From NCBI GenBank assembly GCA_902558585.1, contig CACEEO010000007.1:1-42885 (forward strand): 42,885 nucleotides of DNA. Reading direction: 5' to 3'. This document shows positions 14,611 to 29,140 of the stretch, piece by piece. A program made the translations under genes and the position numbers. The stretch's first letter is position 1. Each line of letters opens with the position of its first letter. This DNA comes from an uncultured Pelagibacteraceae bacterium (GTDB lineage: Bacteria > Pseudomonadota > Alphaproteobacteria > Pelagibacterales > Pelagibacteraceae). Below the pieces are notes generated by a model. It saw only the letters and a list, made by a program, of their open reading frames with translations, searched no databases and was not told the DNA's origin.

Positions 14611-15738
14611 TTAATAACTTTTAAGAAATTTTAATCTTCCAATTATTTCATCTCTATCCATGTAATATCCTTGGAGATGTCTATGACCAGAATTAGGATC
14701 AAACTCTGTTCTTCCATGAAGCAATCTTCTATTGTTAAATGAAAAAATATCACCTGGCTCTAGTCTAAAATTGATTTGAAATTTAGCATCATGCAATAAA
14801 TTTCCAAATCGATGATGAGCTTTATAAACTGAATCCATTATATCTGGATGACAATCAAGAGCATCTAGTGTTGCAATACTATAACGAATATCATTGTAAT
14901 CTCCGTCTTTAGTGAGTGATATTGCTGTACCGTAAACACTTCTTACTGCTTCTTGAGTGTAGTCTTTATCTCTAAATTTAAGTGGAGTATTTACCAATAT
15001 ATCAAAAGTATCTTTTTCATTATTTTTTAAATAATCTGCCACAGCAAATGCATCTACAGCTGATGAGTCGCCACCCTTTGCTGAATTTATTAAACAGTGC
15101 AAAAATTGATAACCAGGTGGATTTTCAAACCAAGGCAAATCCATATGATTTCTTAAAGCGTGCGCTGTATATGCAGAATTATTTGGTTTTGGAATATTAA
15201 TTACTTCAAAAGGTGTTTTAAAAAAAGTTTCTCGAGTATGACTTATGCGGTTTAAAACTTTTAATGCAGAATTTTTTTCTACTGGAGCATTTTTAACAAT
15301 GGCTATTCCAGTGTAATGTAAAAGCTCTAACCATTTAATCAAACCATCATCAGAGTTTATAATTTCATCATGATCAATATGAATAGATTTTAAGTTATTT
15401 TCTAAAGAACTATCCCAAAGTTTATAAGGTGAGACATACTTTTGCTTATTTTTTAAAGTATAGCAGTTTTCTCTTAACCATTTAGGATCGTAATAACTTG
15501 TGTGATCTCCTTCACTCCATTCAATTTCTAATTTTCCATCTGAACTTATAGAATATTTTGTGGGATTAATGTTTTGTGAGACTTCAAGAATATTAAACAT
15601 TCTATGTCTCGAGTATTTATCATGAGCAGTTGGACAATTATCTCTTAGCCAAAGGTAATTAAACTTACTCTCTTCACCATCATTCCAAACAACTTTTAAA
15701 TACGTTGAATTTTTTTCTAGTTTAGAAATTGAGCTCAC
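14611..15738 (-). CDS. Gamma-butyrobetaine hydroxylase-like Fe(II)/2OG dioxygenase (BBOX/TmpA family)
   Basis: A 375-residue two-domain oxygenase: an N-terminal DUF971-like domain (about 1-105, YLWLRDNCP near 28-36) and a TauD-type catalytic domain. Fe ligands are H198 and D200 (NHMDLPW) and H341 (LLHGRTEF), with a 2OG-binding Arg at 353 or nearby. Human and many bacterial BBOX enzymes bind zinc through a CxCxxC cluster after LRDN; only the first Cys (C35) remains here. It probably hydroxylates gamma-butyrobetaine to L-carnitine. The carnitine dehydrogenase, BKACE, thioesterase and betaine-type transporter nearby support this. TmpA, which hydroxylates the trimethylammonio phosphonate, belongs to the same family and is the main alternative. 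The start is GTG at 15738, the only candidate before an upstream stop. Confidence 0.8.
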   Translation of the reverse strand: MSSISKLEKNSTYLKVVWNDGEESKFNYLWLRDNCPTAHDKYSRHRMFNILEVSQNINPTKYSISSDGKLEIEWSEGDHTSYYDPKWLRENCYTLKNKQKYVSPYKLWDSSLENNLKSIHIDHDEIINSDDGLIKWLELLHYTGIAIVKNAPVEKNSALKVLNRISHTRETFFKTPFEVINIPKPNNSAYTAHALRNHMDLPWFENPPGYQFLHCLINSAKGGDSSAVDAFAVADYLKNNEKDTFDILVNTPLKFRDKDYTQEAVRSVYGTAISLTKDGDYNDIRYSIATLDALDCHPDIMDSVYKAHHRFGNLLHDAKFQINFRLEPGDIFSFNNRRLLHGRTEFDPNSGHRHLQGYYMDRDEIIGRLKFLKSY

Positions 15739-15869: not shown

Positions 15870-16886
15870 ATGAAGTTTTTAAAGAAATTAACAATCTCAA
15901 TTTTCCTTCTGTCATCTTTGATTGTAAGTAATGCAAACGCTGGTGATTGTAAGGCAAGATTGGGAGATTTTGACTGGAGTAGTGCTAACATTCATACAGC
16001 AATTACTACTTTTATTCTTGAAAAAGGATACGGGTGTGAAGTTTCTGTAACTAAGGGAAGTACTACCCCAATAATGGCTGCTCATTACGACGGTCAATTA
16101 GATGTTATTACTGAAGTTTGGTATGACAACATTATTGCTAATTACGAGCCACATGAAAAGGCTGGTACTATTATTAATATTGGAGTTAACACACCAGACT
16201 CTCAACAAGCATTCTATGTAGATAAAACAACAGCTGATAAATACAATTTGAAATCAGTTGATGATATGAAAGATCCAAAAATTGCAGCTTTATTTAAAGA
16301 TCCAGAAGATCCTTCAAAAGGAAGAATGACAAGCTGTATATCTGGTTGGACTTGTTATACTGTAAACTTGGTTAAGCAAATAGAATATGGTTTAGACAAA
16401 TACTATACTAACTTTGACCCAGGTTCAGGTGGAGCATTAGATGCTGCTATTGCAGGAGCTTTTGCCAAGAAAAAACCAATCTTTACATATTACTGGGCAC
16501 CAACTGGTTTAATGGGTAAAGTTGACCTTGTTAGACTTACAGAACCAAAATTTGATTCTGATTGTTGGAACTCTATGTCCGCAGTTGTTGAGGATATTAA
16601 AGCAAACGGACCAGATGCTTACAAGAAAAGCTGTGCATGTGAATATAGAGATATGGCTTTGACAAAATCTGTTTTAACTGATTGGGCGAAAGCTAATCCT
16701 AAAGAAACTGATTTCTTAAAGAAATATACTATTCCAACAGCTACAGTTAACAAAATGTTAGCTTTTTACGAAGATGAGTCAGATGGTGATATGGAACTTA
16801 CCGCGATGCACTTCTTAAAAAACGAAAGCATGTGGAAAGATTGGGTGCCTGCAGACGTTGCTAAAAAAGTTAGCGCTGCTCTATAA
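15870..16886 (+). CDS. Betaine/carnitine-type ABC transporter substrate-binding protein (ProX/OpuAC/CaiX-like)
   Basis: A 338-residue periplasmic binding protein with a signal peptide at 1-24 (SNANA cleavage region). The mature sequence has the OpuAC pattern: RLGDFDWSSANIHTAI, then KGSTTPIMAAHYDGQLDVITEVWYDN, then FKDPEDPSKGRM. It has several tryptophans and tyrosines able to form the aromatic cage that binds quaternary ammonium groups. Multiple cysteines (in GDCKAR, ISGWTCYT, SDCWNS and KSCACEYR) suggest disulfides. It is followed by the cognate permease and ATPase genes. Given the carnitine enzymes on both sides, gamma-butyrobetaine, carnitine or glycine betaine are the likely ligands (inference). 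A strong AAGGAG site supports the start. Confidence 0.88.
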   Translation: MKFLKKLTISIFLLSSLIVSNANAGDCKARLGDFDWSSANIHTAITTFILEKGYGCEVSVTKGSTTPIMAAHYDGQLDVITEVWYDNIIANYEPHEKAGTIINIGVNTPDSQQAFYVDKTTADKYNLKSVDDMKDPKIAALFKDPEDPSKGRMTSCISGWTCYTVNLVKQIEYGLDKYYTNFDPGSGGALDAAIAGAFAKKKPIFTYYWAPTGLMGKVDLVRLTEPKFDSDCWNSMSAVVEDIKANGPDAYKKSCACEYRDMALTKSVLTDWAKANPKETDFLKKYTIPTATVNKMLAFYEDESDGDMELTAMHFLKNESMWKDWVPADVAKKVSAAL

Positions 16887-16908
16887 TCCAATATCTTAAA
16901 TATTTTAT

Positions 16909-16932
16909 GAAAGAGCCCTTCGGGGCTCTTTC
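16909..16932 (+). terminator. Hairpin with TTCG loop after the betaine-type binding protein
   Basis: GAAAGAGCCC (16909-16918) and GGGCTCTTTC (16923-16932) form a 10-bp perfect stem closed by a TTCG tetraloop, followed by TTTAAC. It sits 22 bases after the binding-protein stop and 17 bases before the permease start. The shape is that of an intrinsic terminator or mRNA-stabilising hairpin, with a rather short T run, consistent with partial read-through into the permease and ATPase genes. Confidence 0.85.
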
Positions 16933-16949
16933 TTTAACTAAATTAAATT

Positions 16950-17981
16950 ATGGAAGCATTAAAGAAAAATAAAAAAATAATTTTTAATATTGGTTTATTG
17001 GTTGTTTTTGTATGGTTATTAATAACTAGCTATTCACAGTCAAAAAGAAAACCAGATAATATTGGAGAATTATTAAACGATTTTTCTTGGTTAGGAGGTA
17101 AATGGCCAAAGTGGTTAGATTTACCATTAATGAATTGGATCAACGTTGGTTTTAAAGCACTTAATGAAAAATATGGATACATATTTGAGGCTATTAACAA
17201 TGTTCTTCTTTATATGTTAATGCTTGTAAAAAACTTTTTAATTCAAGCTCCATGGCCATTGGTTATACTTGGCGTGGTGGTTCTAACTTATTTTGCAAGT
17301 GGTAGAAAAGTTGGAACAACGGTATTTGTAGGATTTTGTACTTTTTTTATAGGTTTTCTTCACCCAATATTTTGGCAAAAAGCAATTGAAACAACCGCGA
17401 TAATGTTAATTGGAATATTTCTTTGTGTTGTTGCAGGCATTCCATTAGGGATAGCAATGGCAAGAAGTGTAAGAACAAGAAATGTAATTTTGCCAGTTTT
17501 AGATTTAATGCAAACTATTCCAAGTTTCTGTTACTTAATTCCGGGTATTATGTTATTTGGCTTAGGTGCTGTTCCGGCAATTATAGCCACATTTATTTAT
17601 GCAGTTCCTCCTTTAGTTAGACTAACAGATTTAGGAATTAGGCTTGTTGATACTGAGGTTATTGAAGCTGCAGATGCATTTGGTGCAAGTAAAAAACAAA
17701 AGCTTTGGGGCGTACAAATGCCATTAGCTTTGCCAAATATTATGCAAGGAATTAATCAGTGTACAATGATGGCATTAGCAATGGTTGTAATTGCATCGAT
17801 GATAGGTACTAGAGGTTTAGGAGATGAAGTTTTACTTGGACTTCAACAATTAAATGTAGGAAGAGCTGCTGAAGCAGGGATCGCAATTGTACTTTTGGCG
17901 ATAGTTCTTGATAGGATAACTCAATCTTATGGAGAAACACTACAAGAGAGAACAGCACCAAATACAAAGAAAGGTAAATAA
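16950..17981 (+). CDS. Betaine/carnitine-type ABC transporter permease (ProW/OpuAB-like)
   Basis: A 343-residue inner-membrane permease. It has an N-terminal TM, a long hydrophilic/amphipathic segment (about 30-85), then several TM helices with the EAA-type docking loop EVIEAADAFGASKKQKLWGVQMPLAL cut by the conserved Gly. The PLGIAMARSVRTRN segment is typical of ProW/OpuAB proteins. As in ProW a single permease forms a homodimer. The last base of its stop codon is the first base of the ATPase start (17981), so the two are coupled. Upstream is the matching binding protein. Confidence 0.9.
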   Translation: MEALKKNKKIIFNIGLLVVFVWLLITSYSQSKRKPDNIGELLNDFSWLGGKWPKWLDLPLMNWINVGFKALNEKYGYIFEAINNVLLYMLMLVKNFLIQAPWPLVILGVVVLTYFASGRKVGTTVFVGFCTFFIGFLHPIFWQKAIETTAIMLIGIFLCVVAGIPLGIAMARSVRTRNVILPVLDLMQTIPSFCYLIPGIMLFGLGAVPAIIATFIYAVPPLVRLTDLGIRLVDTEVIEAADAFGASKKQKLWGVQMPLALPNIMQGINQCTMMALAMVVIASMIGTRGLGDEVLLGLQQLNVGRAAEAGIAIVLLAIVLDRITQSYGETLQERTAPNTKKGK

Positions 17982-19006
17982 TGTCTAAAATTGAGATTAA
18001 TAATGTTTATAAAATCTTTGGGAACAATCCTCAATCTATAATGCCAATGGTAAAAGATGGAGCGAACAAAGAAGAAGTTTTAGAACAAACTGGTCATACA
18101 GTTGGTCTTGATAATGTGTCATTAAAAATAGAAGAAGGTGAAACTTTTGTTTGTATGGGTTTGTCAGGATCTGGAAAATCAACTCTAATTAGGCATTTAA
18201 ATAGATTAATCGATCCCACTGACGGAGAAATTTTAGTAGAAGGAACAAATGTAATGTCATTAAATAAAGAACAACTAATTGAATTTAGAAGACATAAAAT
18301 GAGTATGGTATTTCAGAGATTTGGTTTGTTCCCACATAAAACTGTTTTACAGAACGTCGGCTATGGATTGGAAATGCAAGGTAAAGCAGAAGAGGAAAGA
18401 CATAGTGTAGCGATGGAAAAAATTGATGCTGTTGGTTTAACAGGATTTGAAAATCAATTTCCAAATCAATTATCTGGGGGAATGCAACAAAGGGTTGGTT
18501 TAGCAAGAGCACTTGCTACTGATAGTGATATCATGTTAATGGATGAAGCTTTTAGTGCTTTAGATCCTTTAATTAGAAGTGATATGCAAAAACAACTGCT
18601 AGATCTTCAATCAGAATTAAAAAAAACAATCGTATTTATTACTCATGATTTAGATGAGTCTTTAAGACTTGGTGATCACATTGGAATATTAAATGCTGGT
18701 AAACTTGTTCAAGTTGGAACACCAGTAGACATTATAATGAATCCGGCTGATGATTATGTTAAGGCATTTGTTAAAGATGTTAATAGAGCAAAAGTAATTA
18801 AAGCTAAAATTATAATGAAGAGTGTTAATGAATCTAACGATATAGATAAATCTAATTTAATAAAAGTTAATGAAGATCAATTTATAGAGGAATTTTTACC
18901 TCAAATTGTATGCTCGAATTCAAATTGTGAAGTAGTTGACAAAAGTGGAAACGTTAAAGGTTACATATCTAATAAAGAATTACAGACATCATTAACAAAA
19001 TCATAA
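17981..19006 (+). CDS. Betaine/carnitine-type ABC transporter ATP-binding protein (ProV/OpuAA-like)
   Basis: A 341-residue ATPase. The N-terminal region KIFGNNPQSIMPMVKDG is characteristic of ProV. Walker A GLSGSGKS is at 60-67, signature LSGGM at 164-168, and Walker B LMDEA followed by FSALDPLIR at 186-199 is the ProV-specific variant with DEA. The C-terminus (about 280-341) is shorter than the two-CBS-domain tail of E. coli ProV and looks like at most one CBS-like unit ending in VVDKSGNVKGYISNKEL. Ionic-strength sensing through CBS domains may therefore be reduced. The SDR gene follows after 3 bases. Confidence 0.9.
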   Translation: MSKIEINNVYKIFGNNPQSIMPMVKDGANKEEVLEQTGHTVGLDNVSLKIEEGETFVCMGLSGSGKSTLIRHLNRLIDPTDGEILVEGTNVMSLNKEQLIEFRRHKMSMVFQRFGLFPHKTVLQNVGYGLEMQGKAEEERHSVAMEKIDAVGLTGFENQFPNQLSGGMQQRVGLARALATDSDIMLMDEAFSALDPLIRSDMQKQLLDLQSELKKTIVFITHDLDESLRLGDHIGILNAGKLVQVGTPVDIIMNPADDYVKAFVKDVNRAKVIKAKIIMKSVNESNDIDKSNLIKVNEDQFIEEFLPQIVCSNSNCEVVDKSGNVKGYISNKELQTSLTKS

Positions 19007-19799: not shown

Positions 19800-20741
19800 T
19801 TACCTAAGTTTTTTTTCGTATTTCTTTCTTAACTTTTGAATATCAACCAAATACTGGTCTCTTATATTAGATATCATTGCAACTGATTTACCTTTAGCCT
19901 GTTTTGCTGTTCCTGAAATCAATCTAGAAGATAATTTTTTTGATAGCTTAGGAGCCTTTAATTTAGTCCATGGTAATTTTAAAGCAGGTCCAAATTGTTC
20001 CAACATATGTTTCATTCCCGTTTTTCCTCCAGCAAGATGAAAGGTTAAAAATGTACCCATCAAAGACCATCTTAATCCTGGGCCATCTTCAATTGCTCTA
20101 TCTAATTCTTCAGTAGTTGCATATCCTTCATTAATAATATGTAGCCCTTCTCTCCATAAAGCTTCTTGTAATCTGTCAGACAAATATCCAGGTAATTCAT
20201 TTTTAACCATAATTGGATTCATAGAAATTGATTTGTAAAATTTTTTAGCTAAATTTAAATTTTTTTTTGAAGTTCTCTTACCTGGAACAATTTCTACAGC
20301 AGGCAATAAATATACAGGATTGAATGGATGTCCAATTATTCCCCTATCTGGATTTTTACATTTTGAATAAATTCTAGTTGGCAACAAACCCGATGAGCTT
20401 GAAGCAATTATTGAATTAGATTTTGCATATTTTCCAATAGTACTAATCAATTTAGTTTTTAAAGAATAATTTTCAGTTGCACACTCCTGAATAAAATCTG
20501 CGTCTTTTAATGTTTGTTCTATTGAGGTAAAAAAATGAAAATTTTTTAGATTTAATTTTTTTTTATTAAATAGTTTTTTTACAAATGGCCAAGTTCTTTT
20601 TATTTCAGATAATAAATTTTTTTTTAACTTAATATCTTTATCAAATGCGTAAACAATTTTGTTATGAGTCAAACAACGTATGATCCACCCTGCCCCAATT
20701 ACCCCAGTTCCAATTATTGCAACTTTTTTAATATTTTGCAT
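19800..20741 (-). CDS. lcdH: L-carnitine 3-dehydrogenase
   Basis: A 313-residue member of the 3-hydroxyacyl-CoA dehydrogenase superfamily that oxidises L-carnitine to 3-dehydrocarnitine with NAD. The Rossmann motif GTGVIG is at 11-16, the SSSSGLLPTRI segment at 114-124, and the catalytic His138 lies in GHPFNPVYLLPAVE with Glu150. GPGLRWSLMG and TFHLAGGKTGMKHMLEQFGPAL in the C-terminal helical domain are the pattern I associate with carnitine 3-dehydrogenase rather than fatty-acid enzymes. Alphaproteobacterial versions are often fused to a thioesterase; this one ends without it, and a separate thioesterase gene lies at 21676. It is coupled to the upstream BKACE gene (shared base at 20741). Confidence 0.88.
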   Translation of the reverse strand: MQNIKKVAIIGTGVIGAGWIIRCLTHNKIVYAFDKDIKLKKNLLSEIKRTWPFVKKLFNKKKLNLKNFHFFTSIEQTLKDADFIQECATENYSLKTKLISTIGKYAKSNSIIASSSSGLLPTRIYSKCKNPDRGIIGHPFNPVYLLPAVEIVPGKRTSKKNLNLAKKFYKSISMNPIMVKNELPGYLSDRLQEALWREGLHIINEGYATTEELDRAIEDGPGLRWSLMGTFLTFHLAGGKTGMKHMLEQFGPALKLPWTKLKAPKLSKKLSSRLISGTAKQAKGKSVAMISNIRDQYLVDIQKLRKKYEKKLR

Positions 20742-21628
20742 TACTTGTGTTTAACAAGTTTTAACTTCTCTCTTGTTTCTGCAGGTGTCATTGTTGATAC
20801 ACCTAGATCTTCAACAATTCTAATTGCCTTTTCAACTAATTGGGCATTTGTTGCCAGTTTTCCTTTAGATAAATACAAATTATCTTCTAAACCTACTCTA
20901 GGATTGCCTCCCATAATTACTGTTTGTGCTACAAATGGCATCTCATTTTTTGAAATTGCAAAGCCTGACCACACACCTTCTTTTGGCATAATATCTTTCA
21001 TAGCTTGCATTGCTAATGGAGTAGCTGGTGCTCCCCAAGGAATTCCTAAACACATTTGAAACATAGGCGGATCATCCAACAATCCTTCTTTATATAGTTG
21101 AGCACCAAACCACATATTGCCTAAATCAAACGCCTCGATTTCAGGTTTTACTTTTATTTCTTTCAATCTTTTTGCAGCTTTTCTTAAATCGTTTGGAGTA
21201 TTAACGGTTATAACTGAACTATCACCAAAGTTTAAAGTTCCGCAATCTAAAGTGCAAATCTCTGGTAAAAATTGCTCAGCATTTGCAATTCTTTCCATAA
21301 CATTTGCCATATCAGTCATTGGTCCAAACTCCAATGGGTCTTTGCCTTGACCAATATCTAAATCTCCACCCATACCAGTTGTTAGATTCAAAATCACATC
21401 TGTATCACTTGAACGAACTCTATCTACAACCTCTTTATATAACTCTAATCTTCTACTTGGAGTTCCATCTTCCTCCCTCACATGAATATGAGCAATAGCA
21501 GCTCCAGCTTTTGCGGCTTCAATTGATGCTTTAGCAATTTGTTCTGGTGTTTTTGGTAAATCTGGATGCTTACCAGCGGTATCTCCTGACCCCGTCACAG
21601 CACATGATATGAATACCTTGTTGTTCAT
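20741..21628 (-). CDS. cdhC: BKACE (DUF849) enzyme, dehydrocarnitine:acetyl-CoA cleavage
   Basis: A 295-residue beta-keto acid cleavage enzyme. Zn ligands H47 and H49 lie in AHIHVREEDG, the third ligand is E248 with R244 in MGGNPRVGLEDNLYL, and ITCAVTGSGD-like and NLTTGMGGD motifs are present. The family condenses a beta-keto acid with acetyl-CoA to give acetoacetate plus a new CoA ester. Next to carnitine dehydrogenase the expected substrate is 3-dehydrocarnitine, giving betainyl-CoA plus acetoacetate, as for CdhC. It heads a two-gene leftward operon with carnitine dehydrogenase and is divergent from the thioesterase that would finish the pathway. Confidence 0.88.
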   Translation of the reverse strand: MNNKVFISCAVTGSGDTAGKHPDLPKTPEQIAKASIEAAKAGAAIAHIHVREEDGTPSRRLELYKEVVDRVRSSDTDVILNLTTGMGGDLDIGQGKDPLEFGPMTDMANVMERIANAEQFLPEICTLDCGTLNFGDSSVITVNTPNDLRKAAKRLKEIKVKPEIEAFDLGNMWFGAQLYKEGLLDDPPMFQMCLGIPWGAPATPLAMQAMKDIMPKEGVWSGFAISKNEMPFVAQTVIMGGNPRVGLEDNLYLSKGKLATNAQLVEKAIRIVEDLGVSTMTPAETREKLKLVKHK

Positions 21629-21675: not shown

Positions 21676-22143
21676 ATGTCTTTTCACATAACAAACCAAA
21701 CAATCAAAAAAGAATGGACTGATTATAATAATCATATGAACATGGCCTACTATGTCTTAGTTTTTGATCAGACTTGGGAGATAATTCTAGAAAAATTTAA
21801 GATGGGTGAAAAATCTGCAAAGGATACCCAAAGAAGTACCATGGTTGTTGAAACTCGAACTACATATGATGGTGAAGTTAAAGAGGGAGACGAAGTTGAA
21901 ATTGTTTTAACCTTTTTTGATCATGATAGAAAGAGATTACATTTTAAGATGGAAATGATTGAAAAATCATCAAAAAAATTATCAGCAACTATTGAAATGT
22001 TAGCGCTTTATATTGATCTTAGTAAAAGAAAAGTTACAGAATTTGAAGATGAAAAAATTAAAATTATGGACGACTTTATAAATAAAAATAAAAATGAATT
22101 TAATTCTGATAATTTATCTATTACTGGAAAACTTAAAAAATGA
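21676..22143 (+). CDS. cdhB: Hotdog-fold thioesterase, probable betainyl-CoA thioesterase
   Basis: A 155-residue 4-hydroxybenzoyl-CoA-thioesterase-type protein. The family motif DYNNHMNMAYYVLVFDQ lies at 16-31, with the short hotdog-fold length. Placed head-to-head with dehydrocarnitine cleavage enzyme and carnitine dehydrogenase, it is the expected CdhB, hydrolysing betainyl-CoA to glycine betaine and CoA. In some alphaproteobacteria this domain is fused to carnitine dehydrogenase; here it is a free-standing gene. Its stop overlaps the next start (ATGA at 22140-22143), tying it to the TauD-like, HD and choline dehydrogenase genes. The function is inferred mainly from context. Confidence 0.8.
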   Translation: MSFHITNQTIKKEWTDYNNHMNMAYYVLVFDQTWEIILEKFKMGEKSAKDTQRSTMVVETRTTYDGEVKEGDEVEIVLTFFDHDRKRLHFKMEMIEKSSKKLSATIEMLALYIDLSKRKVTEFEDEKIKIMDDFINKNKNEFNSDNLSITGKLKK

Positions 22144-22970
22144 TTGATGTAAAATTATTATCAGGAGCATTAGGTGCTGAAATAAGTGGAATTGACTTGA
22201 CTGACGTTTCAGATGAAAATTTTAAAAAAATAAATAACTTATTATTAGAACACAAAGTTATTTTTTTTCGAAATCAACCTTTGACATCAGAACAACATGT
22301 TGCTCTAGCTTCAAAATTTGGACCATTAGAAACACATGCTTATGTAAGAGGTTTAAGTGAATTCCCTGAAATAATAAGAATAATAAAAAAGCCTGAAGAA
22401 AAAACACAATGGGGTGAAGGTTGGCATTCAGATGTTAGCTATAACGAAAAACCAACTAAAGCTGTAATTTTAAAATCAATTAAAATTCCACCAGTTGGAG
22501 GAGATACTGTTTTCTCAAACATGGAACTTGCGTGGGAGACGCTAGAAGAAGAGATAAAAAATAAAATCAAAAATAAAAAAGCAGTTCATTCTTCACTTGG
22601 AGGTGGGTTTTTCCTTGATAAATATAAAGCAATGCAAAGTAATGGAAATATGGATGAATACTCAAACACTCATCCAATTTTAAGAACTCATCCGGAAACA
22701 GGTAAAAAAATTCTTTTTGTAAATTGGACTTACACAAAAGAAATTATTGGTATGGACAAAGAAGAAAGTAAAGAGATTTTAAATTATTTATTTGAACATC
22801 AGGCAAGATTAGATCTTACTTGTAGATTTAAATGGACCGAAAATGCAGTGGCTATTTGGGATAATAGAAGTGTTCAGCATTATGCTATTGCTGATTTTTA
22901 TCCAAATAAAGGGCTTGGTTTTGAAAGAGTAATGGATCGTATAGCTGTTGAAGGGGATAATCCGCAATAA
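22140..22970 (+). CDS. TauD/TfdA-family Fe(II)/2OG dioxygenase
   Basis: A 276-residue oxygenase of normal TauD length. Fe ligands are H96 and D98 in GWHSDVSY and H247 in SVQHYAIADF; R263 in FERVMDRI is the 2OG-binding arginine. The arrangement is like E. coli TauD. It lies between the probable betainyl-CoA thioesterase (4-base overlap) and an HD-domain oxygenase (3-base gap). Hydroxylases paired with HD oxygenases (PhnY/PhnZ, TmpA/TmpB) hydroxylate a phosphonate before oxidative C-P cleavage, so this enzyme may prepare the substrate of its neighbour. It is, however, a plain TauD-type protein, not PhnY-like (phytanoyl family) or BBOX-like TmpA. Taurine or other sulfonates and quaternary amines remain possible. 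Confidence 0.82.
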   Translation: MIDVKLLSGALGAEISGIDLTDVSDENFKKINNLLLEHKVIFFRNQPLTSEQHVALASKFGPLETHAYVRGLSEFPEIIRIIKKPEEKTQWGEGWHSDVSYNEKPTKAVILKSIKIPPVGGDTVFSNMELAWETLEEEIKNKIKNKKAVHSSLGGGFFLDKYKAMQSNGNMDEYSNTHPILRTHPETGKKILFVNWTYTKEIIGMDKEESKEILNYLFEHQARLDLTCRFKWTENAVAIWDNRSVQHYAIADFYPNKGLGFERVMDRIAVEGDNPQ

Positions 22971-22973
22971 TTA

Positions 22974-23510
22974 ATGAAGATAATTTATAAAATCATTTCA
23001 AATTTTATAAATAATAAATCTTTATACATTGGTGAGAAAGTAACTATGTCAGAACATATGATTCAGTCAGCCATGCTTGCTGAAAAAGCTAAATGTAATG
23101 ATGATTTAATTTGTGCATGTTTGCTTCATGACTATGGTCATTTTCTTTTAGAAGATCCTGAAGAATTAGTTAAAAATAAATTAGACGGAGAGCACGAAAA
23201 TATTGGATATCAGTATTTAAAAAAATTTTTTGGACAAAAAATTGTTGAGCCAATTAAATACCATGTTTTGGCTAAACGTTATTTAGCTAGAGACAAAAAA
23301 TATTTTGAATTTTTATCAGATGCGTCAAAAATAAGCCTCAAGTTACAAGGCGGAGTTTTAAATGACAAAGAAAGTAAAAAGTTTGAAAATAAATCTTACT
23401 TTAAGCCATCAATTCTACTCCGAAAGTTTGACGAAGCCGCTAAAAGAACTGACATAAAAATGAAATCTATTCATGACTATGAAAAGTTGTTAAGTTCAAA
23501 ACTTATATGA
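22974..23510 (+). CDS. HD-domain mixed-valent diiron oxygenase-like protein (PhnZ/TmpB family)
   Basis: A 178-residue HD-domain protein, usually misannotated as phosphohydrolase. Visible ligands for a two-iron site are H28, H52-D53, H74, H97 and D153. It also has Y18 and E21 (YIGE, just before H28), the Tyr/Glu lid pair typical of PhnZ-type oxygenases, and K101 in YHVLAKRYL. The spacing follows PhnZ closely as I recall it, and LKLQGG near 122-127 is also a signature of that group. PhnZ cleaves the C-P bond of hydroxylated 2-aminoethylphosphonate; TmpB cleaves the trimethylammonio analogue to glycine betaine and phosphate. The preceding gene encodes a 2OG hydroxylase, and the next starts inside its last codons (23507), encoding choline dehydrogenase. 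No phosphonate transporter lies in the window, so the substrate is open. Confidence 0.8.
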   Translation: MKIIYKIISNFINNKSLYIGEKVTMSEHMIQSAMLAEKAKCNDDLICACLLHDYGHFLLEDPEELVKNKLDGEHENIGYQYLKKFFGQKIVEPIKYHVLAKRYLARDKKYFEFLSDASKISLKLQGGVLNDKESKKFENKSYFKPSILLRKFDEAAKRTDIKMKSIHDYEKLLSSKLI

Positions 23511-25090
23511 ATTTTGATTATTTAATAATTGGCGCTGGAAGCGCGGGCTGTGTGCTTGCAAACCGATTGACAGAAAATGATCAAAACAATGTAGCCATAT
23601 TTGAAGCTGGAAAACCCAGTGATATTTGGAAAGTTAATATGCCACTCGCAATTTTATATACGATGCATGATCCAAAATATAACTACAAATATTATTCAGA
23701 ACCAGAACCTCATCTACATAACAGAAGATTATTTTGTCCAAGAGGAAAAATGATTGGTGGATGTTCTGCTCATAATGGAATGGTATTTGTGAGAGGAAAT
23801 CCAAATGATTATCAAAGATGGGCATCTTTTGGATTGGAAGATTGGTCTTATGACAAAGTTCTTCCCTATTTCAAAAAAATTGAAACATGGTCGGAAGGAG
23901 AAAATGAATATCGAGGTGGTAGTGGAATATTGCCAGTGAACCAATCTAAAAATAAAAATCCTTTATTTAAAGCCTTTGTGGACTCTGCTGGTGAGGCTGG
24001 TTACAAAATAAACAATGATATGAATGGTAAAGAACAAGAAGGTTTTGGAATGTACGATGTTACTATTCATAAGGGAGAAAGAGCAAGTGTATCTAAGTAT
24101 TATTTAAATCCTGCTAAAAAAAGAAAGAATTTAAAAGTATTTACAGAAGCTTTTGTTGAGAGAATCATTTTTGATGGAAAAAAAGCAATTGGAATTGAAG
24201 TAAAAATTAAAAATAAAGTCGAAAAAATTTATGCAAATAAAGAAGTAATTTTAAGTGGAGGTGCAATTAATTCACCACAATTACTAATGCTTTCTGGAAT
24301 TGGTCCAAGCCAACACTTAAAAGACAAAGGAATTAGCGTTGTTCACAACTTAGATGGTGTTGGAAAAAACTTACAGGATCACTTGGAAACTTATGTTCAG
24401 CAAGAATGCAAAACTAAAGACACTTTATACTCATACGTTAATAAGTTAAATATGGTTAGAATTGGAATTCAATGGTTTTTGAATAGAAGTGGTCCTTGTT
24501 CTACTTCTTTCTTGGAAGCTGGAGGATTTTGTAAATCATCTCCAGAAAGAGAGTACCCAAATATTCAATTTCATTTTTTTCCTGCCTTTGTAATCGATCA
24601 TGGATTAGTTGATCCAGATAGGCATGGTTACCAGTTACATGCAAGTCCAAACCATCCAAAAAGTAGAGGTCATATAACTTTAAACAGCTCAAACCCTTAT
24701 GATTATCCAAAAATTCAATTTAATTATCTAGAACATGAGGATGATTTAAAACAAACAATAGAGTGTATTCATGTAGCTAGAAAAATTTTAGGACAAGATT
24801 CATTAAAACCATATGCAGGAAAAGAAATTGGACCAGGAGAACATTCTAAAACCAATGAAGTATTTGAGGAATATATTCGTTCAAAAGCAGAGACAGCATA
24901 TCACCCATCTTGTACTTTAAAAATGGGAGTAGATAATATGGCTGTAGTTGACCAAAAACTAAAAGTTCATGGTATAGAAAACTTAAGAGTAGTTGATGCT
25001 TCTGTAATGCCAGAAATTACTAGTGGAAATCTAAATGCTCCAACTTTAATGATTGCAGAAAGAGCATCAGAATTTATTTTAAATTCTTAG
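23507..25090 (+). CDS. betA: Choline dehydrogenase (GMC oxidoreductase)
   Basis: A 527-residue FAD-dependent GMC oxidoreductase. The FAD-binding GAGSAG is at 9-14, followed by the GMC signature region FCPRGKMIGGCSAHNGMVFVRG and GGAINSPQLLMLSGIGP. The active-site His466 lies in AETAYHPSC and Asn510 in SGNLNAPT. Long stretches such as LQDHLETYVQQECK and EIGPGEHSKTNEVFEEYIRS follow BetA closely. The enzyme oxidises choline to betaine aldehyde and possibly on to glycine betaine. No betaine-aldehyde dehydrogenase gene is adjacent. It overlaps the HD-oxygenase gene by 4 bases and ends the thioesterase-TauD-HD-betA operon, so it belongs to a unit producing glycine betaine. Confidence 0.88.
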   Translation: MNFDYLIIGAGSAGCVLANRLTENDQNNVAIFEAGKPSDIWKVNMPLAILYTMHDPKYNYKYYSEPEPHLHNRRLFCPRGKMIGGCSAHNGMVFVRGNPNDYQRWASFGLEDWSYDKVLPYFKKIETWSEGENEYRGGSGILPVNQSKNKNPLFKAFVDSAGEAGYKINNDMNGKEQEGFGMYDVTIHKGERASVSKYYLNPAKKRKNLKVFTEAFVERIIFDGKKAIGIEVKIKNKVEKIYANKEVILSGGAINSPQLLMLSGIGPSQHLKDKGISVVHNLDGVGKNLQDHLETYVQQECKTKDTLYSYVNKLNMVRIGIQWFLNRSGPCSTSFLEAGGFCKSSPEREYPNIQFHFFPAFVIDHGLVDPDRHGYQLHASPNHPKSRGHITLNSSNPYDYPKIQFNYLEHEDDLKQTIECIHVARKILGQDSLKPYAGKEIGPGEHSKTNEVFEEYIRSKAETAYHPSCTLKMGVDNMAVVDQKLKVHGIENLRVVDASVMPEITSGNLNAPTLMIAERASEFILNS

Positions 25091-25141: not shown

Positions 25142-26251
25142 ATGAAAAAGACTATTGTTCAAAGTTGGAATGAATGGGATCCATTAAAACATGTAATTGT
25201 TGGAAGGGCAGATAATTGCTGTATTCCTGCACCTGAACCAGCTGTTGATTGTAAAATTCCACCTGACTCTGTGATGAAAGGTAAACACGGAAGACGAACA
25301 CAAGATTCTATAGATAGAGCGAATGAACTTTTAGATAAATTTGTTAAAACACTTGAGGGAAGAGGTATAAGAGTTGATAGACCTACTCCACTAAAATTTG
25401 ATGAAAAAATTGCCACTCCTGATTGGGAAGTAGAACATATGTTTGGGTGTATGCCATCTAGAGATGTTATAATTACAGTTGGAAAAGAAATGCTTGAAGC
25501 TACAATGAGTTTTAGATGTAGATGGTTTGAGTATTTAGCCTATAGACCATTGTTACAAAAGTACTTTGTTGAAGATCCCGGCATGAGACACGAAACTGCG
25601 CCTAAGCCTAGATTGACTGATGATGATTATCATATGAATTATTTATCGGAAGATGTGAGTATAGAGCAAAGATTACAGTGGGCAGAAAAAAAATATTTTG
25701 TTACAACTGAAGAGGAACCACTTTTTGATGCTGCAGATATTTTAAGATTTGGAAAAGATTTAATTGTTCAACATGGATTTACAACTAATCTAAAAGGAAT
25801 TGACTGGTTAAAAAGACATTTTCCAGATCATAGAATTCATACAGTAAATTTTCCAGGAGATCCCTACCCGATTCATATAGATGCAACTTTTACACCTATA
25901 AAACCTGGGTTAATTTTAAATAATCCAGTTAGAAAGCTTCCAAAAGAACAAAGGAAACTTTTTGAAGACAATGGTTGGGAAATTGTTTATGCAGCTCAGC
26001 CTGCCCATAATTCACCTCCAGACCTGAGTTATTACTCTGTATGGCTATCAATGAATGTTTTGGTACTAGACCCAAAAACAGTATGTGTAGAAAAGACAGA
26101 AGTTTATCAAGCTGAACAATTAGATAAGCTTGGAATGGAAGTAATTCCAATAGATTTTAGAGAAGTCTATGCTTTTGGTGGTAGTTTACATTGCAGCACA
26201 ACTGATGTTTTCAGAGAAGGTAATCTTCAGAACTATTTTCCAAAACAATAA
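25142..26251 (+). CDS. Glycine amidinotransferase (AGAT)-like enzyme
   Basis: A 369-residue amidinotransferase of the pentein superfamily. The catalytic triad is readable: Asp196 in PLFDAADILRFGKD, His245 in PIHIDATF and Cys351 in SLHCSTTDV, with spacing close to human AGAT. The WNEWDPLKHVIVGRADN N-terminus is also AGAT-like. Such enzymes move an amidino group from arginine to an amine acceptor (glycine in AGAT, inosamine phosphates or others in antibiotic pathways), forming a guanidino compound. The acceptor here is unknown. There are 51 bases after betA without a clear terminator, and two EamA transporters plus a 2OG oxygenase follow in tight order, suggesting a cassette that makes, modifies and moves a guanidino compound. 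Confidence 0.85.
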   Translation: MKKTIVQSWNEWDPLKHVIVGRADNCCIPAPEPAVDCKIPPDSVMKGKHGRRTQDSIDRANELLDKFVKTLEGRGIRVDRPTPLKFDEKIATPDWEVEHMFGCMPSRDVIITVGKEMLEATMSFRCRWFEYLAYRPLLQKYFVEDPGMRHETAPKPRLTDDDYHMNYLSEDVSIEQRLQWAEKKYFVTTEEEPLFDAADILRFGKDLIVQHGFTTNLKGIDWLKRHFPDHRIHTVNFPGDPYPIHIDATFTPIKPGLILNNPVRKLPKEQRKLFEDNGWEIVYAAQPAHNSPPDLSYYSVWLSMNVLVLDPKTVCVEKTEVYQAEQLDKLGMEVIPIDFREVYAFGGSLHCSTTDVFREGNLQNYFPKQ

Positions 26252-27221: not shown

Positions 27222-28175
27222 ATGGCAAAAGATAATAATTCTAAAGGTATTATTTTAATAATCGTCGCGATGACTTTATTTGCAATGCAAGATTCTTTAA
27301 TAAAATATATTTTTGAAAAAGCCTCTCTTTATGAAATTTTTTTTGGAAGGTATTTTGTTGCAGCTGTTTTACTTTTTAGTTACATAAAATTTAAAAAACA
27401 AAAAGTTTCATTAAAAACTTTTTATCCTATTTTAACAATTGTTAGAGTTGTTCTTCACTTTTTGGCATTTTCAGCTTTCTTTATTTCTCTTACATACATG
27501 CCCTTAGCAACGGCAAATGCCCTATTCTTCTCTTGTCCTTTTTTTGTATCTATTTTTGCTAAATTTTTTTTGAAAGAGTTTATTGGAATAAGAAGATGGT
27601 CTGCAATTGTATTTGGTTTCATAGGAGTTTTTATTGTACTTGACCCAAACTTTTCTGATTTTGAATACAAAAGTTTGCTCCCAGTAGTATGTGCATTCTT
27701 TTATGCTGCATCCATGACAATAACAAAATACACATCAGATAAAGATGATGTTAATACTCAATTATTTTATTTTTACTTAATAGCCCTAATTTTATGTGGT
27801 CTTATTTATTTGTTTATGGGAAATGGACAATTGAATAACCCCAACTTTGATCCAACTACACAGTTTATTTTTAGAGAGTGGTTTTCAAATATTGAATATA
27901 CATGGAAATTTATCTTATTTTTTGGTTTTGTCGCCTCGATTGCTTTCCTCTGCATATTTTCAGCTTACATTGTTGCTTCACCTTCTGTGGTTTCTCTGTT
28001 TGAATATTCTCTAATTATAATGTCTATGATACCTGGATATTTTTTATTTAATGAAATTCCATCAGGTAGAACTTTTTTTGGTGTTGCGTGTATAATAGCT
28101 GCTGGAATTTATATTTACTTAAGAGAAAAAGCTAGGGATCATTATATTGCAACAGAAACTCCAGTGAGAAGATGA
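27222..28175 (+). CDS. EamA/DMT-family transporter (second of tandem pair)
   Basis: A 317-residue transporter, the tandem paralogue of the preceding gene, starting at the base after its stop codon. By eye about half of the residues are shared, including GIRRWSAIVFGFIGVFIVLDPNFSDF-type blocks, the TSDKDDVNTQ loop, TQFIFREWFS and the C-terminal tail ending ATETPVRR. About ten hydrophobic helices. Its last codons overlap the start of the IPNS-like oxygenase (ATGA, 28172-28175). Ligand unknown. Confidence 0.85.
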   Translation: MAKDNNSKGIILIIVAMTLFAMQDSLIKYIFEKASLYEIFFGRYFVAAVLLFSYIKFKKQKVSLKTFYPILTIVRVVLHFLAFSAFFISLTYMPLATANALFFSCPFFVSIFAKFFLKEFIGIRRWSAIVFGFIGVFIVLDPNFSDFEYKSLLPVVCAFFYAASMTITKYTSDKDDVNTQLFYFYLIALILCGLIYLFMGNGQLNNPNFDPTTQFIFREWFSNIEYTWKFILFFGFVASIAFLCIFSAYIVASPSVVSLFEYSLIIMSMIPGYFLFNEIPSGRTFFGVACIIAAGIYIYLREKARDHYIATETPVRR

Positions 28176-29140
28176 CCAAAAGTTATATACCTACAATTAA
28201 TATATCATCACTTATAAAAAATAACTTTGAAACTCAAAGTGCATTTAAGACAATTAAAGAAATTGAAAAAGCTTGTGTTAATGTAGGATTTTTTCAAATT
28301 ACAGGTCATGGAATTAATTTAAAAGAAATTTACAAAACCTGTGAAGTTGGTAATAAATTTTTTAATTTACCAAATAGCAAAAAGAGAAAATTATCACCCA
28401 AAAAATGGAATAAAAAAAATAAAAATCTATACAGAGGATATTTTCCTAACGATGTAAATGGAAAAGAAGGTTTAGACATAGGTGATTTAAAAGTAACTAA
28501 AAAATATTCCTCAAATCTAAACAATCAATACATAGAGTTTCTTAATTTAGGTAAATGTTTAAATAAAAGCTCAATTAATATTTTAAACAAATATTTTGAT
28601 AATATTTATAGATTGAGTGAAACTTTGTTTAAAAGTGTAATAAAACTTAATAAAAAAAATCCTGATATTTCTAGTTTAGCTTTTTCAAGATTAAAAACAT
28701 TAAGTACATTAAGATTTAATTATTACCCAAACCAAACAGAACCAGTTGAAATATCAAAACAAGATGGAGTTGCTCTTGGTTGTGAAACACATGTAGATAG
28801 TGGAATATTTACAGTTCTCTATCAAGATAGAAAAGGTGGATTGCAAGTACAAAATAGGAAAAATAAAAAATGGTATGATGTACCATTCAACAAAAAAGCT
28901 TTAGTAGTAAATACGGGAAGAGCTTTAGAATATTTAAGCAAAGGTAAATTTAAAGCAACTAATCACAGAGTTTTGTGGAATAAAAGTAAGAGACTATCTG
29001 TTCCTTTTTTCTTTGAACCTTCCTATGATTTCAAAATGAACCAATCATTTTTAAATGGAAGTAAATTTAAAAATAATGGTCAAATTTATGAGAAATTTCT
29101 CAACAAATCTTTAAAGAAATTTATTGAATATCAACGTTAG
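28172..29140 (+). CDS. Isopenicillin-N-synthase-type Fe(II)/2OG oxygenase
   Basis: A 322-residue member of the IPNS-like dioxygenase family: an N-terminal DIOX_N region (IPTINISSLIK, then VGFFQITGHGI at 38-48) and a double-stranded beta-helix domain. Fe ligands are H207 and D209 in CETHVDSG and H265 in ATNHRVLW; R274-x-S276 is the 2OG-binding RxS motif. All residues for an active 2OG oxygenase are therefore present. It is coupled to the EamA pair and lies downstream of the amidinotransferase. In plants and bacteria this family hydroxylates or desaturates amino acids, and bacterial members include the arginine-consuming ethylene-forming enzyme. Action on arginine or a guanidino product is a reasonable hypothesis, not shown. 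It is very Lys/Asn-rich, even for this genome. Confidence 0.82.
   Translation: MTKSYIPTINISSLIKNNFETQSAFKTIKEIEKACVNVGFFQITGHGINLKEIYKTCEVGNKFFNLPNSKKRKLSPKKWNKKNKNLYRGYFPNDVNGKEGLDIGDLKVTKKYSSNLNNQYIEFLNLGKCLNKSSINILNKYFDNIYRLSETLFKSVIKLNKKNPDISSLAFSRLKTLSTLRFNYYPNQTEPVEISKQDGVALGCETHVDSGIFTVLYQDRKGGLQVQNRKNKKWYDVPFNKKALVVNTGRALEYLSKGKFKATNHRVLWNKSKRLSVPFFFEPSYDFKMNQSFLNGSKFKNNGQIYEKFLNKSLKKFIEYQR

Follow-up and report, generated by a model that had tools for sequence, protein, structure and literature searches.

The stretch of DNA analyzed here (the window; 42,885 nucleotides from an uncultured Pelagibacteraceae bacterium) encodes, in adjacent genes, a TauD-type 2-oxoglutarate/Fe(II) hydroxylase (22140..22970, + strand) and an HD-domain oxygenase of the PhnZ/TmpB type (22974..23510, + strand), which together may, with a likelihood that we place just short of even, release glycine betaine and phosphate from 2-(trimethylammonio)ethylphosphonate (TMAEP). 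The hydroxylase is the predicted first step and the HD protein the predicted C-P cleavage step. What is new is the TauD-type partner for a TmpB-like HD protein; judged by sequence, the pair is a variant of the TmpA/TmpB kind and, by curated cut-off, not a member of it. The two genes stand in a run of four same-strand (+) genes, encoding a thioesterase, the TauD-type hydroxylase, the HD protein, and a BetA-like dehydrogenase, that overlap or nearly touch. The thioesterase and TauD genes overlap by 4 bases, 3 bases separate TauD from HD, and the HD gene overlaps that for BetA by 4 bases, and the positions and spacing named in the original prediction were correct.

Sequence and Modelled Fold of the HD Protein

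Neither its sequence nor its modelled fold marks the HD protein as an ordinary HD hydrolase. Among NCBIfam models, TIGR03276 (Phn-HD) was the best curated match and covered residues 15-174 of 178, yet the score of 167.5 bits lay under the cut-off of 214.6; the TmpB model NF049941 (153.1 bits) and the PhnZ1 model (137.8 bits) likewise fell short of their cut-offs, 300 bits in each case. When the Protein Data Bank (PDB) was searched with the HD protein sequence at E 0.1, the matches were confined to TmpB (E 1.1e-30) and to PhnZ (2.1e-27). The AlphaFold model (pLDDT 92) retrieved ten PhnZ/TmpB chains in Foldseek at E 2e-11 to 7e-10, with PhnZ structures ranked top and no other chain under E 0.001; HD hydrolases first appeared at E 0.49, and MIOX gave a TM score of 0.53.

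Inspection of the HD polypeptide revealed Y18, E21, H28, H52, D53, H74, H97, and D153, all in place. These residues make up the motif of the HD-domain mixed-valent di-iron oxygenases as one part of a review sets it out (PMC8177086), namely the ligand set H...HD...H...H...D with a YxxE lid. The lid pair Y18/E21, the predicted iron ligands, and K101, S118, Q125, and R150 were invariant across 40 SAR11 sequences, and in 30 class-level loci, which are the top TIGR03276 scorers and not a random draw, they were invariant or had one exception each (E21 and D153). K101, S118, Q125, and R150 are presumed to contact substrate. The claim first made from the letters of the window, that this protein has the full ligand set and lid pair and is of the PhnZ/TmpB kind, was thus upheld by the PDB search, the model fold, and the kept residues, and no clustering with metal-dependent phosphohydrolases was found.

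A TmpB-like Signature

At four positions the window HD protein carries the residues of TmpB (T24, M25, M29, and F57), where PhnZ has N, Q, S, and Y. Of 40 distinct SAR11 sequences (L003-L051), 39 carried this signature when it was scored as T24-[MI]25-H28-M29-[FY]57, as did all 16 further distinct SAR11 sequences. It was also present in both SAR11 HD sequences that adjoin TmpA, in one of two other diverged ones, and in all 14 alphaproteobacterial TmpB equivalogs, each of which has an adjoining TmpA relative (49-56% identical to the TmpA of L099). None of the 30 class-level Phn-HD loci (L052-L081) carried it, nor did any of three SAR11 HD genes of a 40%-identity type; the next 16 loci listed under the TmpB cut-off (L257-L272) included five that did. 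Several loci in this listing duplicate genes of the 30 class loci, for example L262 and L265 (there L072 and L052), L268, and L272.

The two TmpA-adjoining sequences come from genomes G422 and G462, where the gene for the HD relative (identity 57 and 55%, respectively) has as its divergently oriented neighbor one whose product reaches 532 and 542 bits with the TmpA model (cut-off 400). No TauD ortholog was found at E 1e-60 in G422 (93% complete) or G462 (63% complete). On the first, 88-row HD tree (described below), their HD proteins (L099 and L101) fall outside the BetA-linked SAR11 subclade, which has support of 100/100. TmpA adjacency in this HD clade was confined to these diverged relatives, the neighbor in the window being TauD-type, and four other genomes (G453, G472, G496, and G502) have an over-cut-off TmpA elsewhere in the genome besides HD-BetA. 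On the simplest reading of these sequences, a TmpA-partnered HD lineage would have become linked to TauD and BetA in a natural partner swap.

A quaternary-amine phosphonate is favored over 2-aminoethylphosphonate (2-AEP) because of the TmpB signature and of the two diverged SAR11 relatives that adjoin TmpA, and we consider it quite likely that the HD step is TmpB-like, taking 1-hydroxy-TMAEP to glycine betaine and phosphate. Several observations weigh against this assignment. The 14/14 result is partly circular, since proteins with the signature went into the TmpB model; six sub-cut-off loci (L260, L261, L262, L264, L265, and L270) lack the full signature even though each has a TmpA-like neighbor (33-50% identical); and an HD tree of 72 chosen rows puts the SAR11 HD clade outside the TmpB clade. 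Long branches were flagged in that tree, and SAR11 HD and TmpB as one clade were not rejected (p-AU 0.20). A first HD tree, with 88 rows kept from 106 after near-copies were dropped, had unsettled bootstrap values and flagged long branches. The phylogeny proposed along with the original prediction accordingly yields a separate SAR11 clade, for which sister grouping with TmpB or with PhnZ is neither demonstrated nor rejected.

Two further kinds of SAR11 HD gene were noted. One Phn-HD lineage (~40% identical; L105:2546-10952 and L226) lies beside PhnX-like and PhnCDE-like genes, named by reading; PhnD near the L105 gene passes the Pfam cut-off (G415). These surroundings contrast with those of the window gene, which are of the betaine kind. 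Separately, 16 of 26 SAR11 genomes searched encode a TmpA-like oxygenase that scores 329-352 bits against the cut-off of 400, and in seven of these (G437, G386, G430, G448, G405, G484, and G499) it adjoins a different HD protein, without the YxxE lid and the K/S/Q/R residues, forming a second, unexplained 2-oxoglutarate (2OG) oxygenase/HD pair (L103:9824-11475). The genome of the window has the TmpA-like oxygenase and the lid-less HD protein on separate contigs (G000:C27:334-1383 and G000:C3:13886-14044).

The TauD-type Partner

The partner hydroxylase is plain TauD-type and not TmpA, as had been claimed: it matched PF02668 (201 bits) and gave no match at E 0.001 to the TmpA model NF049936 (cut-off 400). 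On the taurine dioxygenase model PRK09553 it scored 231.1 bits, missing the cut-off of 313. The 50 Foldseek matches listed for its model (pLDDT 82), with E values from 3e-29 to 3e-24 and identities of 28-37%, are chains of PlaO1, of AAD-1/RdpA, and of the TauD type.

The iron triad and H70, V102, and R270 (Escherichia coli TauD numbering) were kept in 67 of 67 aligned rows, a set that includes the window and near-copies and excludes two G422 paralogs (~36-39% identical), which differ. By contrast, every one of the 67 has V, W, G, and Y in place of Y73, D94, N95, and F206 of E. coli TauD. We take the three kept residues to be anion contacts and the changed positions to be taurine-amine contacts. 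Retention of the one set together with change in the other fits a substrate that joins an anion to a large cation, and does not tell phosphonate from sulfonate. A point against such a reading of the pocket is that the loop of residues 90-97, which holds W91, has a pLDDT below 50 in the model; pocket structure at the amine loop was therefore set aside. In G453 (L112 and L176) the TauD gene beside HD is interrupted, lying as two pieces in a row with one stop in the matched frame.

Linkage of TauD and HD

TauD lies directly before HD in 47 of 47 related SAR11 loci (L003-L049), many of which are close relatives of one another and not independent cases. BetA comes next after HD in 46 of them, the remaining locus (L015) ending at a contig edge. 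Two members of an initial 49 loci, L050 and L051, were dropped, with only 17-19 residues matched at a contig end.

Across 197 Pelagibacteraceae genomes, HD was counted at an identity of at least 55%, which gave 23 genomes (one with an internal stop) and excluded three matches at ~40% along with every short, weak match; TauD, counted at E 1e-60, was found in 26 genomes, three of them with fragments. Both genes were present in 16 genomes, HD only in 7, TauD only in 10, and neither in 164 (Fisher p 7e-12, kinship ignored). In 13 of these 16 genomes TauD immediately precedes HD; the genes were nearby on opposite strands in G484 and apart in G437 and G510. In the 77 near-complete genomes the corresponding numbers were 4, 3, 9, and 61 (p 0.014). 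Recurrence of the pair in relatives, which the original prediction had made a point of decision, was therefore confirmed, but the genes that occur singly show that the pair is not obligate.

That the two enzymes act together is weighed down by the detail of these exceptions. Nine of the 77 near-complete genomes have TauD without this HD clade, two of them (G415 and G546) carrying a 40%-type HD instead, and three have the reverse; TauD still adjoins BetA in eight of the nine. G449 and G503 (97-99% complete) have HD without TauD or an over-cut-off TmpA, and G643 shows the same TauD-less order. In a further family, f174, none of the 14 TauD loci examined out of 26 has HD or BetA adjoining, and the overlap there (both in 9, against TauD in 26 and HD in 20) is about that expected by chance if the sample holds ~53 f174 genomes, itself an estimate. 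Finally, HD adjacency changes eight times on a TauD tree, six of the changes being forced by supported branches; the tree held 59 rows plus two outgroup rows, from 85 distinct rows after near-copies and short rows were dropped, and, from one TauD listing, rows that scored below 330 bits or contained a stop were discarded ahead of the counts. Because co-occurrence is incomplete and adjacency changes repeatedly on this tree, the HD gene has the behavior of an optional element inserted between those for TauD and BetA.

Four aligned f174 TauD genes (L197, L198, L199, and L201) have the same active-site letters as the SAR11 TauD set. The f174 gene follows one for an EamA transporter, with an alkylsulfatase-family gene divergently upstream (L197:4913-8412 by Pfam; L198, L199, and L201 by reading). 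In viral contigs, 14 pattern matches yielded no confirmed relative.

Proposed Route to Glycine Betaine

The change of TMAEP to glycine betaine can be described by the following two-step scheme. The TauD-type enzyme would hydroxylate TMAEP at C1, with the phosphonate gripped by H66, V99, and R267 (window numbering) and with V69, W91, G92, and Y198 in place of the taurine-amine contacts. The HD enzyme, at a predicted mixed-valent di-iron site, would then bind (R)-1-hydroxy-TMAEP and O2 and split the C-P bond, and the glycine betaine formed would enter a pool also fed by the neighboring choline and carnitine genes. Given a TmpB-like HD protein, TauD probably supplies its substrate. The idea of a two-oxygenase route from a quaternary-amine phosphonate to glycine betaine, with which the study of this locus began, gains from the TmpB signature and from TmpA beside two relatives, but loses from the pair not being obligate.

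Alternative Explanations

The alternative that survives best is that the enzymes work side by side and not in series. Acting alone on a quaternary-amine sulfonate or sulfate ester, with N,N,N-trimethyltaurine or choline sulfate as candidate substrates, TauD would form betaine aldehyde by cleavage; BetA would oxidize the aldehyde, and HD would act on 1-hydroxy-TMAEP imported or made elsewhere. Sulfonate hydroxylation by TauD requires no second enzyme, and there are ten genomes in which TauD is directly before BetA with no HD between (G415, G437, G485, G507, G510, G532, G546, G550, G560, and G570), although G437 and G510 hold HD of this clade elsewhere and G415 and G546 a 40%-type HD. The occurrence of HD without TauD in G449, G503, and G643 and the alkylsulfatase-family gene near f174 TauD point the same way. 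Set against these, the pair is closely adjacent and strongly co-occurring within Pelagibacteraceae, and no mention of trimethyltaurine or taurobetaine was found among the literature matches listed. Among the papers listed in a separate search, none was by its title on a choline-O-sulfate 2-oxoglutarate dioxygenase. On balance we regard the side-by-side arrangement as possible but rather unlikely.

A more doubtful proposal combines the two: one TauD-type hydroxylase might serve two uses, converting trimethyltaurine to betaine aldehyde alone and TMAEP to the hydroxyphosphonate for an add-on HD oxygenase that would release glycine betaine and phosphate. If so, a single enzyme would open two hidden head-group pools to SAR11, the sulfur and phosphorus analogues of choline, and a large part of the "phnZ" in the sea would be a marker of quaternary-amine phosphonates and not of 2-AEP.

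It is improbable that the HD protein is a PhnZ, forming glycine and phosphate from 2-AEP that the TauD-type enzyme has hydroxylated. Its family and fold are common with PhnZ, which stood first in Foldseek, and a marine survey counts, in the part of it used here, Pelagibacterales phnZ as 2-AEP genes (PMC9381506). The signature is nevertheless that of TmpB, PhnZ having N-Q-H-S-Y; two relatives have a TmpA neighbor and the context is one of betaine; and a separate SAR11 HD lineage is the one found beside PhnX-like and PhnCDE-like genes (by reading).

Less probable still is that the pair acts by MIOX-like oxidative C-C cleavage on a quaternary amine other than a phosphonate, for instance one derived from carnitine or choline. 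In many loci the pair lies among carnitine genes, and HD-oxygenase chemistry reaches C-C bonds in MIOX, according to part of a review (PMC8177086). Yet the Phn-HD residues K101, S118, Q125, and R150 are kept, MIOX is a weak structural match, and L028, L031, L035, L042, L043, and L045 keep TauD-HD-BetA with no carnitine gene in ~10 kb upstream. On the evidence of these six loci, the carnitine pathway was rejected as an essential partner system. That HD is an ordinary metal-dependent phosphohydrolase, as the bare HD-domain assignment by Pfam, its only one, would allow, is scarcely credible in view of the exclusively PhnZ/TmpB structural matches below E 0.001, with hydrolases beginning only at E 0.49, and of the YxxE lid.

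Genomic Context and Candidate Import

The draft genome that holds the window is 71% complete, and its near relatives are Pelagibacteraceae (SAR11). The four-gene run has a carnitine-degradation block on one side and further amine genes on the other. The betaine context first ascribed to the pair is upheld, as one of betaine, carnitine, and choline. Two of the gene names given at that time need qualification. The thioesterase (21676..22143, + strand; 155 aa) is betainyl-CoA-thioesterase-like on the basis of a 4HBT_2 match (Pfam, 81.4 bits) and a partial match to PRK07531 (carnitine 3-dehydrogenase), in the C-terminal portion of that protein. The BetA-like GMC choline dehydrogenase (23507..25090, + strand) passes the subfamily cut-off of PRK02106 (748 bits; cut-off 605) but misses the BetA equivalog cut-off (679 against 732).

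Upstream, on the - strand, are a BKACE beta-keto acid cleavage enzyme (20741..21628; PF05853, 308 bits), assigned to dehydrocarnitine cleavage by context, and an L-carnitine dehydrogenase-like protein (19800..20741; PRK07066, 349 bits, cut-off 414). The BKACE gene is absent within the upstream stretch examined (~10 kb) in six loci that keep TauD-HD-BetA. Farther upstream, a 2OG oxygenase of the gamma-butyrobetaine hydroxylase (GBBH)/TmpA superfamily (14611..15738, - strand; GBBH 318 bits, cut-off 415; TmpA 267, cut-off 400) is separate from the TauD gene.

A ProXWV-like ABC transporter of the betaine type (15870..19006, + strand; three open reading frames (ORFs) named by reading) is a candidate importer. 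No PhnD-type protein over cut-off was found in nine triple-bearing genomes searched, which is consistent with import via a betaine-type system; among 17 selected genomes such a protein occurred in two, G415 and, marginally, G546, neither with the triple. The betaine-type system just upstream of the pair could, we infer, import a choline-like phosphonate.

After BetA comes an amidinotransferase-like gene (25142-26251), named by reading, for which Pfam gives a weak arginine deiminase match. Many relatives have in its place an opposite-strand ORF of ~330 aa, of the arginase family in L016 (L016:12117-13103). A further 2OG-oxygenase gene of the DIOX_N/2OG-FeII type lies at 28172-29140, and an ORF at the contig end (42210-42776) looks CsiD-like, by reading only.

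Comparison with Known Systems

The pair most resembles TmpA/TmpB of Leisingera, which takes TMAEP to glycine betaine. The HD fold, lid, metal ligands, and T-M..H-M..F signature are alike, as is the betaine context, and two SAR11 relatives adjoin TmpA; the differences are that the hydroxylase here is TauD-type where TmpA is GBBH-like, and that the window HD protein, at 153 bits against the TmpB cut-off of 300, sits in a clade of its own. PhnY/PhnZ, which takes 2-AEP to glycine, shares the layout of hydroxylase plus HD oxygenase and the fold, but the window HD protein lacks the PhnZ letters at positions 24, 25, 29, and 57. PhnY, moreover, is of another 2OG-oxygenase type than TauD, whereas TauD is the only Pfam match of the hydroxylase here. 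Taurine dioxygenase has in common with that hydroxylase the fold, iron triad, and anion residues, and is set apart from it by the four substitutions and by the score of 231 bits against 313.

Two reviews, in the parts drawn on here, treat PhnY/PhnZ and TmpA/TmpB as oxidative C-P routes (PMC8177086 and PMC10574752), and the second adds GmPhnY/GmPhnZ and PhoF. A TauD-type first enzyme appears in neither of these parts, and that of PMC10574752 makes no mention of TauD at all. A literature search, outside which most subscription journals lay, returned no paper describing a TauD-HD pair by title or abstract start and none joining SAR11 with tmpB.

In the portions of two marine surveys considered, Pelagibacterales account for 45% of marine phnZ sequences in the one, which takes phnZ as a sign of 2-AEP use (PMC9381506), and in the other very few sites yielded the phnZ subclade specific to 2-AEP (PMC8316502). 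A SAR11 HD lineage of the TMAEP type might explain part of the conflict between these accounts. If the proposed route is correct, abundant ocean bacteria would own an oxidative C-P route to glycine betaine that uses a TauD-type hydroxylase, and a choline-like phosphonate would be a possibly overlooked source of phosphorus for abundant bacteria of the sea.

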